Assembly: GCA_016201135.1 (NCBI GenBank) | Contig: JACQDK010000029.1 | Span: forward strand, 1-32,723 | DNA: 32,723 nucleotides | Source: Actinomycetota bacterium | GTDB lineage: Bacteria > Actinomycetota > UBA4738 > HRBIN12 | Reading direction: 5' to 3' | Shown here: one piece after another, positions 11,610 to 15,764 of the stretch | Position numbering within the stretch: position 1 is the stretch's first letter | Layout of the letters: every line of letters starts with the position of its first letter | Notes under the pieces: model-generated | The model's database searches: none | What the model was told of the DNA's origin: nothing | The model's input: only the letters and a program-made list of their open reading frames with translations | Program-made: the position numbers and the translations under genes

Positions 11610-12833
11610 TCAACCCGCGGTGCGCGCGGCGATCTGGTTCGCGACGATGGCCGCGTCCTTTCCCACTCCGCACAGGAGCGATGACTTCCGTGTGCGGAGG
11701 AAGTGGACGCCGACGAAGTACAGACCCTGCGCCGCAGAGCTCGCGCCCTCGACGTGGTTCGGGAACCCGAGCTCGTCGAAGGCCCCCGGCACCTTCACCC
11801 ACCTGCCGTAGTCGGGCCGGAAGCCGCCGGTGAAGATCACCGCTCCGAAGTCCGACAGATCCAGGTGCTCCGGCGCTCGGGCGTCGAACGGTTCGGGCTC
11901 GGGGATGTCCGGCATCGCCAGACCGCGTTCGGCCACCAGCTTGCGAACGAGATCCATGATCTGCAGGTACCGCTCGTCTCCCCAGGCGACGCTCTCGCCG
12001 AGGTCGGGGGCGAACAGCGCCCGGCGGCCCTCGGCTTCCAGGAAGTGACCGAGCAGGGTGACGCCGGCGCTGCGCAGGGTTCGAAGGTGAAGGTCGTGGC
12101 CGCCGCTGTGCCCGCTGGCCAGGACGTTGGCCGCCAGGCGCGCGGCCGGGGTGGGCAGGGCTGTGACCGGCTGGTCCAGGAACCCCGTCTCCAGCACCCA
12201 CCAGAAGATGTCGCGGTCGCCGAGGCGGCGTGGTACCCACGGCGCCCGGCCGCACGAGAGGAACACCTCCCGACCGGCCTCGTGCAGTTCCTCCGCGAGC
12301 TGGCAGCCCGTCTGGCCGCTGCCGATCACGAGCACCTTGCCGGGGGGAAGCGCCTCGGGGTTCCGGTAGCCCTCGACGTCGATCTGCGGGAGTTCCGCGG
12401 GCAGGCTCGATGCGCGCGCGGGCCGATGGGGTAGCTGGTAGGCGCCTGTGCTGACGACGACGGTCCGGGCCTGGATCTCGCCCCCCGAAGTGCGGAGGAG
12501 GAAGCGGTCTTCCTCCGCGGGTTCTAGAGAGGTCACCTCGATGTCCTCGCGCACGGGCGCGCCGAGGCCCTCGGCGTAGCGCTCCAGGTACTCGACGATC
12601 TGGTCGCGAGGCATGAAGCCGTCCGGATCAACACCGTCGTAGGGACCACCGGGAAGCTGGAGGGACCAGTTGGGCGTGACCAGGCAGAAACTGTCCCAGC
12701 GGTTCCGCCACGTCTCACCGATCCGGCCCCAATCCATGACGACGTGCTCGACGCCCGCCCGCGTGAGCTCGTGACTCGTGGCCAGGCCCGCCTGCCCGCC
12801 ACCGATCACAACGGTGTCGATACGTTCCGCCAT
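11610..12833 (-). CDS. Flavin-dependent monooxygenase/oxidoreductase (CzcO-like)
   Basis: MAERIDTVVIGGGQAGLATSHELTRAGVEHVVMDWGRIGETWRNRWDSF... with GxGxxG FAD motif and second Rossmann VLVIGSGQTGCQLAEEL. Confidence 0.88.
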   Translation of the reverse strand: MAERIDTVVIGGGQAGLATSHELTRAGVEHVVMDWGRIGETWRNRWDSFCLVTPNWSLQLPGGPYDGVDPDGFMPRDQIVEYLERYAEGLGAPVREDIEVTSLEPAEEDRFLLRTSGGEIQARTVVVSTGAYQLPHRPARASSLPAELPQIDVEGYRNPEALPPGKVLVIGSGQTGCQLAEELHEAGREVFLSCGRAPWVPRRLGDRDIFWWVLETGFLDQPVTALPTPAARLAANVLASGHSGGHDLHLRTLRSAGVTLLGHFLEAEGRRALFAPDLGESVAWGDERYLQIMDLVRKLVAERGLAMPDIPEPEPFDARAPEHLDLSDFGAVIFTGGFRPDYGRWVKVPGAFDELGFPNHVEGASSAAQGLYFVGVHFLRTRKSSLLCGVGKDAAIVANQIAARTAG

Positions 12834-13212
12834 GGGTCGGAGCATGCTACCCGGACCGTCGGGGGGTTGTCCGACGGGCGCCGCCGCGCGCAGACTGTCG
12901 CTGCCCGCGGAAGGGAGGATGCGCGTGCCGCTGGCTCACCGAGGTTCGTGGCTGGAAACGCGTGGTGCTCATCGCGATCCTGATGGTGCTGGCCGTCGGC
13001 ATCGGCCTCGCGCTGCGGGCTCTGGGGTTCGGCCCGTCCGACGTCTCCAAGACGTGACTCGGCGAGCGCGTCGGACGCCACCCGGGACGACGTCGATCGC
13101 GCGATCGGCCGTTAGGCGCGGCTCCGAGTCTCCGAGGTGATGGGCGGAGCCGTGCTGCTCGAAGTGGCGGACCCCACCAGCTCTTCGGCTTCAGACCCGG
13201 GGTCCATCGCCC

Positions 13213-13719
13213 TCATCTCCGACCTTGAGACGGGGCATCACCCAGATCTGCCAGGTCGGGCACGAGCTCCTCGGGATGGTCACCAAGAAGGTACCGGGCA
13301 CTCGGACCTCTGGTCGAAGCGATGTCGTCCGGGTTGTAGAGACGGCATCTTTGCAGCGACAGGCATCCACAGCCGATACAGCCCGTCAGGTCGCTACGGA
13401 GTGCCTCGAGCGCGGCGATCCGGTCATCTAGCCGCCGACGCCACGATCGCGAGAGCTTGGCCCACTCAGCCTTCGTGGGCGCTCGGTCGGCGGGCAGGAT
13501 CGCGAGCGCCTCGCCGATCTCCTCGAGCGTCAGTCCCAGCCTCTGTGCGATCCGGATGAGGGCCACGCGGCGGAGAACGTGCCTCGGGTAGGTGCGGCCC
13601 CCACCACTGGTCCTGTCGGATCGGATCAAGCCTAGGGACTCGTAGAAGCGCAGGGCTGATGCCGCAAGTCCGCTCCGTTCGGCTACCTCGCCGATCCGGA
13701 TCACGTCGTCGGCCCGCAT
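13213..13719 (-). CDS. soxR: SoxR-type MerR-family [2Fe-2S] redox regulator
   Basis: IRIGEVAERSGLAASALRFYESLGLIRSDRTSGGGRTYPRHVLRRVALIRIAQRLGLTLEEIGEAL...CIGCGCLSLQRCRLYNPDD: MerR HTH plus CxxCxC-x5-C cluster. Confidence 0.93.
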   Translation of the reverse strand: MRADDVIRIGEVAERSGLAASALRFYESLGLIRSDRTSGGGRTYPRHVLRRVALIRIAQRLGLTLEEIGEALAILPADRAPTKAEWAKLSRSWRRRLDDRIAALEALRSDLTGCIGCGCLSLQRCRLYNPDDIASTRGPSARYLLGDHPEELVPDLADLGDAPSQGRR

Positions 13720-13735
13720 CTCCCTCGAACGCTCC

Positions 13736-13766
13736 TTGACTTGAAGTGGACTTGAAGTCGTAAGGT
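13736..13766 (+). promoter_or_regulatory. SoxR-type operator/promoter with 19-bp spacer
   Basis: TTGACT (13736-13741) - 19 bp - TAAGGT (13761-13766); spacer region holds the near-palindrome GACTTgAAGTggACTTgAAGTC (13738-13759). Confidence 0.7.
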
Positions 13767-13834
13767 CCTGACCAGCGACTTGCGATGTGAGGACGCGAGA
13801 TGGGGACGATACCAAAGACGGAGCGAAGGCCCAG

Positions 13835-15088
13835 ATGAGCGAGACCCTCGACGAAGCGCTCGAGATCTTGCACGACACCGGCCCCGAGTTCAGCGAGGAC
13901 GACGAAGGCGGTCTCTCCAACCACGGCCCGATGGCTGCCGAGGCTCTGTGCGCCCTTGGACGCGAGGACGAAGTCATCGGGTGGGTCGAGGGCTACATCC
14001 CTCGTCTCCAGGAACACCCCAGCGCCGGTGAGCCCGTCGGCGATGCTTGGCACGAAGCGCTGGGGGAGTACGCGAGGCTGCCCGACTGGATCGCCCTGTT
14101 CGATGGCGAGCTCGCTGAAGGGGATTGGCAGGAAACACTGAACACGTGGGTCGCTCGTCTTGCTCCGGGTCTTGCAGCGGCCGCTACGCACGGGCTGATC
14201 AGAACCGCCCACGCCGCGCGTTCCCTCGGGCAGAGCGACGTACCAGGCCGCCGCCATGAACTCGCGGAAGGGCTCGCCTACTGGGCTGCCCGCTATCAGC
14301 AACTTCCCGGGAAGCTCGCCGATTCCCCTTCCCGTCTTGCGCCGTCCGATGCTCTTCGACGCGTCAAACGACTCGAGGTCCGAAGCTCAGGCTTGATCAG
14401 CGACGACTTGCGCGGACTCGACGAGCTCCCTGGCTTTGCGGGCGTGGTGAATCTCGTCGACCCTTCCCCAGACCCGGCACGGTTCCTCTCGGAGATGACA
14501 CTTACGTTTGCCCGCGCGTACCTCGAGACGGTCTCATCGGGACGGATCATCGGAATGATCCACTCCGTGACGGGGCCGAGCGCCTTGCGTCTCCTGATGC
14601 CACACATAGAGCTGGACACGGCGGCGACCGCTTCGCGCTTCGCGTGGCAGACGGGGGCCGGGATCTATGCGGCGCTCGCTGGGACGAGCGACGAACCTTT
14701 TGAGGTGTCGACTTCGTTGGATATCGAGGATCTCGTGGATCAGGCAGTCGCCACCGGGGACGAGCATGCGATCAAGTTCATGGAAGCGTGTATTCGCGAG
14801 CACGCGCTCAACCCCGATCCGATCTACCTGACCGCGGCGTCGGATGCAGCGACGCGTCTCGCCGCCGACTACGACCGTCAGGTTGAAGAGAAGTCGCTGG
14901 GCTCGCCTTGCTTCGAAGAATGTGGTGACGTCGTGGTGACGCGCCGACACGCGGTGGGGCGATCGCGTGAGACGGCAAGGGCCGGGGACATGCCCCGGCC
15001 TACCGTGGTTCCCTTCGTGCCCTATGCCGTCGCGCAGGTGCAGTGGACGTCGGCCTCGCCGCAGCCCCGACAGAGCAGCGTGCAGTAG
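13835..15088 (+). CDS. Questin-oxidase-like (DUF4243) protein; extreme C-terminus uncertain
   Basis: MSETLDEALEILHDTGPEFSEDDEGGLSNHGPMAAEALCALG...TWVARLAPGLAAAATHGLIRTAHAARSL...ELAEGLAYWAARYQQLPG: motifs recalled for questin oxidase-like proteins. Confidence 0.75.
   Translation: MSETLDEALEILHDTGPEFSEDDEGGLSNHGPMAAEALCALGREDEVIGWVEGYIPRLQEHPSAGEPVGDAWHEALGEYARLPDWIALFDGELAEGDWQETLNTWVARLAPGLAAAATHGLIRTAHAARSLGQSDVPGRRHELAEGLAYWAARYQQLPGKLADSPSRLAPSDALRRVKRLEVRSSGLISDDLRGLDELPGFAGVVNLVDPSPDPARFLSEMTLTFARAYLETVSSGRIIGMIHSVTGPSALRLLMPHIELDTAATASRFAWQTGAGIYAALAGTSDEPFEVSTSLDIEDLVDQAVATGDEHAIKFMEACIREHALNPDPIYLTAASDAATRLAADYDRQVEEKSLGSPCFEECGDVVVTRRHAVGRSRETARAGDMPRPTVVPFVPYAVAQVQWTSASPQPRQSSVQ
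14980..15000. terminator. 8-bp stem-loop near the convergent 3' ends
   Basis: GGCCGGGG-ACATG-CCCCGGCC; no U-tract; lies inside the 3' end of the 13835-15088 ORF. Confidence 0.4.
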
Positions 15089-15204
15089 CGGTCGGAGCCG
15101 CCGTGCAGGTGCCCGGGGTCGTGCTCGTCGGCCTCGGCCCCGCAGATCGCGCACTTCCAACCGGCAGTGACACCCCCGCACTTCACGCAGCGGTCGTCGC
15201 TCAT
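15022..15204 (-). CDS. 60-aa Cys-rich zinc-ribbon-like mini-protein
   Basis: MSDDRCVKCGGVTAGWKCAICGAEADEHDPGHLHGGSDRYCTLLCRGCGEADVHCTCATA*; nine Cys; ATGA overlap with the osmC-like stop. Confidence 0.65.
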   Translation of the reverse strand: MSDDRCVKCGGVTAGWKCAICGAEADEHDPGHLHGGSDRYCTLLCRGCGEADVHCTCATA

Positions 15205-15764
15205 CGGACCTCCAGGTCGGTCACGACCGGGGTCGCGTTCGCGATGATGTCTCGCACGGGCGAGGTGTCCTGAACGTACTGACACAGCTCCTCGAGCGTC
15301 GCGGCGTCGGCGTTGCTGGCCTTCGCTGTCCCCTTGACGCGGATCTCCGTGAAGCCCGCGCGGGGGCCGCCGCCCAGTCCGACGAAGGTGCGGAGGTCGA
15401 CATCACCCTCCAGCTCGTAGGAGAGCTCCTCCAGGTCGATCCCGCGCGCGGCCGCGTTGTAGGCGAACCCGACCGCGTAGCAGAACCCCAGCGCCGCAAG
15501 CACCAGCTCCACCGCGTTCGCGCCCGCGTCGTCGCCGAGCAGGACCGCGGGCTCGCTTCCCACGAGCGTGTGCGTGTCCGCGTGGGCGGACTCCTGCCCC
15601 GCATGGGTGAACGCCGAGATGCGTCCCGTGCTCGTCCCGCCGCCGGTCCAGTCGGTCTTCGCCTTGAACGTGAACCGCCCGATGCCGGGATCCTGCTCGA
15701 TCGCGCCGATCGTCTGGACCAATCGGTCGACGTCGACCCCGTTCCTTGCCGTGGTCGTTGCCAT
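15201..15764 (-). CDS. OsmC-family protein
   Basis: MATTTARNGVDVDRLVQTIGAIEQDPGIGRFTFKAKTDW...GSEPAVLLGDDAGANAVELVLAALGFCYAVGFAYNAAARGIDLEELSYELEGDVDLR: OsmC fold signature. Confidence 0.88.
   Translation of the reverse strand: MATTTARNGVDVDRLVQTIGAIEQDPGIGRFTFKAKTDWTGGGTSTGRISAFTHAGQESAHADTHTLVGSEPAVLLGDDAGANAVELVLAALGFCYAVGFAYNAAARGIDLEELSYELEGDVDLRTFVGLGGGPRAGFTEIRVKGTAKASNADAATLEELCQYVQDTSPVRDIIANATPVVTDLEVR

Follow-up and report, generated by a model that had tools for sequence, protein, structure and literature searches.

A putative SoxR-controlled questin-oxidase-like gene in an actinobacterium and the recurrence of this sensor-enzyme pairing

In the established mechanism of SoxR, oxidation of its [2Fe-2S] cluster by redox-active compounds activates transcription. 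In Escherichia coli, soxR and soxS form a divergent pair, with a dyad located in the 19-bp spacer of the promoter and carrying an AAGT-NN-ACTT core. Outside the enteric bacteria, SoxR is thought to answer redox-active metabolites through pumps and oxidoreductases. The SoxR regulon of Streptomyces coelicolor is composed of six genes, including those for a quinone oxidoreductase, a monooxygenase and an ABC transporter (PMC4146615), and both benzoquinone and plumbagin act directly on S. coelicolor SoxR to activate it (PMC5288332). When the literature was searched for SoxR together with 'questin oxidase', no paper was found, and 'questin' gave unrelated papers only.

The stretch of DNA analysed here, called the window, is the 32,723 nucleotides of contig JACQDK010000029.1 from an Actinomycetota bacterium. 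Its soxR gene stands opposite a questin-oxidase-like gene, in a layout like that of E. coli soxR-soxS: the genes are divergent, a dyad lies in a 19-bp spacer and the AAGT-NN-ACTT core is present. Unlike in E. coli, the window is without SoxS and SoxR faces the enzyme gene directly. This is reminiscent of S. coelicolor, where SoxR acts directly on oxidoreductase promoters and is itself directly oxidised by quinones (PMC5288332). The window nevertheless differs from S. coelicolor in that soxR lies next to its putative target and is transcribed away from it, in that a pattern search found a single genomic site, and in that the questin-oxidase-like gene class is not among the listed S. coelicolor regulon (PMC4146615). 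The features of the locus are the following.

13213-13719, minus strand: soxR, 168 amino acids, MerR-family [2Fe-2S] redox sensor (TIGR01950, PDB match, Cys motif)
13736-13741, plus strand: -35 element TTGACT (read from the sequence)
13738-13759, plus strand: SoxR operator GACTTGAAGTGGACTTGAAGTC, mostly within the 19-base spacer
13742-13760, plus strand: spacer of 19 bases (read from the sequence)
13761-13766, plus strand: -10 element TAAGGT, pointing toward the questin-oxidase-like gene
13787, plus strand: possible alternative start, an in-frame GTG
13835-15088, plus strand: questin-oxidase-like (PF14027/DUF4243) gene (Pfam, homologue alignment)
about 13835-14890, plus strand: conserved domain, residues 1-352 (homologues align from near 13835)
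14979-15001, plus strand: strong hairpin, a terminator-like stem without T-run (fold -25.6 kcal/mol, z -3.1), within the non-conserved tail of the gene

The minus-strand gene encodes a SoxR. It scores 199.9 bits against the SoxR equivalog profile TIGR01950 of NCBIfam (cutoff 116.9), the top PDB match of its product is E. coli SoxR (2zhg, E 8e-42), and the cluster motif CIGCGCLSLQRC, which has the form Cx2CxCx5C of the [2Fe-2S] ligands, is present. No other match in the assembled part of the draft genome (132 contigs, 90% complete) exceeds the SoxR cutoff, and three weaker matches to the model are present. Among the 27 genomes of the window's class, SoxR is found in this genome and in that of a sister of the same GTDB family (G012) only. 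About 370 bases downstream of soxR and on the same strand, 11610-12845 encodes a flavin-dependent, MSMEG_0569-like oxidoreductase, which reaches 359 bits against the MSMEG_0569 family, under the cutoff of 498. This gene was considered as a co-regulated target and rejected, as no second box was found.

The initial annotation had described a TTGACT-N19-TAAGGT promoter enclosing a near-palindrome, between soxR (minus) and the questin-oxidase-like reading frame (plus), and its coordinates and description are right. Of the 22 positions of the operator GACTTGAAGTGGACTTGAAGTC, 18 pair with the reverse complement, the unpaired ones being the central GG and one G per half, and the AAGTNNACTT core of the operator is present within the 19-bp-spacer promoter. 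At up to 3 mismatches, the dyad is matched once in the window and never in 100 shuffles, and its 20-base core has one site in the assembled 2.24 Mb of the draft genome (reversed-pattern control, 0). A position matrix was trained on the boxes that precede 48 other soxR genes of actinobacteria, the window, the sister genome and Nocardioides being left out. The window site scores 44.1 bits with this matrix (training sites, 29-59), and the runners-up in the window are the same site on the opposite strand (7.7), then the next independent site (-4.7). As the operator is located 18 bases upstream of the soxR start, it probably governs soxR itself too.

The closest SoxR, 76.6% identical, is that of the sister genome. 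The operator there is a perfect palindrome, GACTTCAAGTGCACTTGAAGTC, with unchanged spacing, and the substitutions between the two operators preserve the dyad. The window operator doubles as an 11-base direct repeat (GACTTGAAGTG/GACTTGAAGTC), and an 11-bp tandem operator for a non-MerR regulator was considered; it was rejected, as the sister genome retains the inverted dyad and not the direct repeat, which also designates the dyad as the conserved feature. No flanking-gene synteny was found between the window and the sister genome beyond a 50-residue sigma-factor-like match.

The DNA surrounding 80 SoxR matches from the phylum was retrieved and the region upstream of each soxR was inspected. 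A shared element, CTTGACTTnAAGTTAACTTnAACT-nn-TAnnnT with a 19-bp spacer, is present at 48 of these soxR loci. TTGAC is (nearly) invariant in the 48 boxes, TTG having been a selection requirement, and TANNNT is found at equal spacing in most of them. The genes facing the box vary and encode SDR, FMN reductase, zinc-type quinone/alcohol dehydrogenase, luciferase-domain or Rieske-fused proteins. SDR genes are the commonest among the sampled non-Streptomyces actinobacteria (22 loci, one cluster; L179-L221). One cluster of small proteins facing the box comprises 7 genes (L198, L208, L215, L219, L222, L223 and L226), and L219, the member scanned, matches Pfam PF17648 (luciferase domain).

The product of the plus-strand gene matches PF14027 with 36.5 bits (gathering cutoff 27) over profile positions 32-147 of 340, and all 41 aligned public homologues match this family too. 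Its AlphaFold2 model has a pLDDT of 88 and a pTM of 0.86, residues 367-413 being below 50. When this model was compared to the PDB with Foldseek, six matches were obtained at E <= 0.001, all from the same superfamily: PaD hydroquinone dioxygenase (8z4q, 8z4r), AflY non-heme iron dioxygenase (8yxs) and BTG13 questin oxidase (7y3w, 7y3x, 7y3y), with E from 1.8e-6 to 1.9e-4, probability 1.00 and TM 0.58-0.60. The iron ligands of BTG13 are four His and a modified Lys. H30, H119, H126, H243, H311 and K314 of the window enzyme are conserved in 38-39 of the 41 homologues, as read from the alignment only, without residue-by-residue superposition. The window protein is like BTG13 (7Y3W), AflY (8YXS) and PaD (8Z4Q) in its predicted fold (TM about 0.6) and in PF14027, and its conserved His/Lys set may correspond to theirs. 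It is unlike these fungal (hydro)quinone-type dioxygenases in being bacterial, in lying beside a redox regulator and in sharing 14-16% identity with them.

These results support the assignment of the window enzyme to PF14027, with the BTG13/AflY/PaD fold as modelled. The initial annotation had called it an anthraquinone-ring-cleaving oxidase: the family and the fold stand, but the named reaction exceeds the evidence because the identity between the window enzyme and the fungal enzymes of solved structure is about 15% only. BTG13 is cited, by a reference title in PMC12186474, as an atypical non-heme iron dioxygenase cleaving an anthraquinone C-C bond. Anthraquinone ring cleavage by the window enzyme is plausible.

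The last ~65 codons of the reading frame (14890-15088) are without counterpart in the homologues. Because these end near residue 350, and because the tail is predicted to be disordered after about residue 366 and crosses the hairpin, an ancestral stop may have been lost and the functional end of the gene may differ from the one annotated at 15088. No RNA element was found by Rfam in 13600-15300.

The wiring observed in the window recurs in other actinobacteria. When 77 public questin-oxidase-like homologue loci were scanned (639 kb, both strands), a SoxR-type box was found 38-71 bases before the match start in eight of them, with just three matches above 6 bits elsewhere on both strands. These eight loci are from Mycobacterium (two), Nakamurella, a Pseudonocardiales MAG, Actinoplanes, Crossiella (two) and Nocardioides psychrotolerans. 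SoxR is encoded in 8/8 boxed genomes, compared to 23/42 others (Fisher p = 0.015, relatedness ignored). In the seven boxed actinobacteria outside Nocardioidaceae, soxR does not adjoin the gene but is present elsewhere in each genome; inspection of the neighbourhood of these loci gave no other MerR gene, and Actinoplanes, Pseudonocardiales and Nakamurella carry a canonical box beside their own soxR. In the two Mycobacterium loci (L084 and L079), where soxR is elsewhere in the genome, the boxed gene directly precedes a secG-like gene, and in L084 a tpiA-like gene lies upstream of it (named from translations).

A survey of 200 Nocardioidaceae genomes, in which only genes with readable upstream DNA were counted, gave a box before 11/11 questin-oxidase-like genes, with soxR divergently adjacent in 7/11. 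N. psychrotolerans has two such genes, each boxed. No such divergent pair was found in the 26 remaining genomes of the class to which the window belongs. The initial annotation had proposed to look for the operator and the gene pair in relatives, and this search did not refute its reading. What it said on regulation, namely that a SoxR box lies in a promoter of the MerR type (19-bp spacer) with a questin-oxidase-like target, is backed by conservation in the sister genome and at dozens of soxR loci, by the recurring pair, and by the boxes before the gene in further actinobacteria; regulation of the gene by SoxR, as predicted from these comparisons, is thus well supported.

As 69 of the 77 loci are without a SoxR box, and as the closest relatives of the window enzyme are found in Chloroflexota and Acidobacteriota genomes that gave no SoxR match, SoxR control is, judging from these loci, a feature of some actinobacteria and not intrinsic to the enzyme family. 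In the enzyme tree, the window protein shares a clade with proteins of Chloroflexota and Acidobacteriota, and this clade does not include the Nocardioidaceae enzymes (96/90 support). In the SoxR tree, the window SoxR groups with that of the sister genome (100/98), and the SoxRs of the Nocardioidaceae pairs are found in three other places. These placements point to at least two separate origins of the coupling, an argument that it has a functional reason.

The gene facing the SoxR box in four genomes (G012, G055, G131 and G189) encodes a Rieske-fused protein; in G012 this gene is cut off by the contig end. The long C-terminal part of these proteins gave no Pfam call. Its comparison to the questin-oxidase-like alignment with hhalign gave a probability of 70% and an E of 4e-5, with the His motifs in identical order, and at most 4.5% for the controls (reversed and eight shuffled). 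The Rieske-fused protein is thus probably a remote relative of the questin-oxidase-like family, and one operator may, as seems probable from this alignment, serve two forms of a single enzyme superfamily. In 397 genomes, nine proteins were found that join a Rieske [2Fe-2S] part to such a long helical domain, and four of these face a SoxR box (loci L276, in G012, L273, L274 and L275; L277-L281).

All these results make it likely that the operator of the adjacent SoxR drives the questin-oxidase-like gene and that its product is a quinone/hydroquinone-type oxygenase. For binding, induction, metal, substrate and reaction, we infer the following course. Reduced SoxR would occupy the dyad inside the over-long 19-bp spacer. 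Redox-active compounds would oxidise its [2Fe-2S] cluster, and oxidised SoxR would distort the DNA so that a sigma-70-type RNA polymerase could use TTGACT/TAAGGT. The questin-oxidase-like gene would then be transcribed, SoxR at the same site controlling soxR too. The enzyme so produced would belong to the BTG13/AflY/PaD superfamily and, as a non-heme-iron oxygenase, would oxidise and probably open a quinone/hydroquinone-type compound (perhaps as the hydroquinone, given PaD). The inducing compound would thereby be removed and the signal would fall.

The main alternative concerns the enzyme. The site could be a true SoxR operator serving mainly soxR autoregulation and the control of whatever redox enzyme adjoins it, the substrate being a non-quinone and the quinone link accidental. 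The wide variety of box-facing partners (SDR at 22 loci, FMN reductase and others), the closest enzyme homologues lying in genomes without a SoxR match, and the role of DUF4243-containing MinC in minimycin biosynthesis, a non-quinone chemistry (PMC8724604), all speak in its favour. However, the enzyme family is tied to SoxR repeatedly and independently, even where soxR lies elsewhere, and the structures solved for this fold are those of a questin oxidase, a hydroquinone dioxygenase and a non-heme iron dioxygenase; we regard this alternative as unlikely, although worth keeping in mind.

Much less probable still is that the operator belongs to another MerR-family activator. Spacers of 19 bp are used by other MerR proteins too, the genome has three weaker matches to the SoxR model, and at loci without adjacent soxR (Mycobacterium, Crossiella) sequence alone cannot name the regulator; but the box adjoins soxR both here and in the sister genome, the motif is found upstream of about 50 actinobacterial soxR genes, and the boxed loci without soxR have no other MerR gene that we could find beside them. 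Finally, dyad and promoter could have come together by chance between the two genes, where little intergenic DNA lies, and simple matches to promoter hexamers occur often; but a site unique in the draft genome at up to 3 mismatches, scoring 44 bits with an independently trained matrix and conserved in the sister genome through substitutions that keep the dyad, makes chance hardly credible, and the conservation data contradict it.

Our preferred reading remains that of SoxR controlling a quinone/hydroquinone-type oxygenase, and it could be extended. Actinobacterial SoxR would repeatedly control bacterial ring-opening quinone/hydroquinone dioxygenases, both stand-alone PF14027 and Rieske-fused, in an inducible pathway destroying the redox-active ring rather than exporting or reducing it; this extension is tentative, and we lean slightly against it. 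In the fungal neosartorin cluster, a ring-cleaving DUF4243 enzyme is paired with an SDR reductase (PMC11149221), and the many actinobacterial SoxR boxes facing SDR genes offer a parallel that is only suggestive.

Because the sensor-enzyme wiring recurs in other actinobacteria, our comparisons suggest that bacteria turn on a quinone-attacking enzyme on sensing quinone-like compounds. The recurring link to a ring-cleaving-type dioxygenase would, if true, add a catabolic arm to the SoxR response and give a physiological context to the little-characterised bacterial PF14027 proteins. In compact two-gene loci such as the window and the Nocardioidaceae pairs, sensor, operator and enzyme are testable together.
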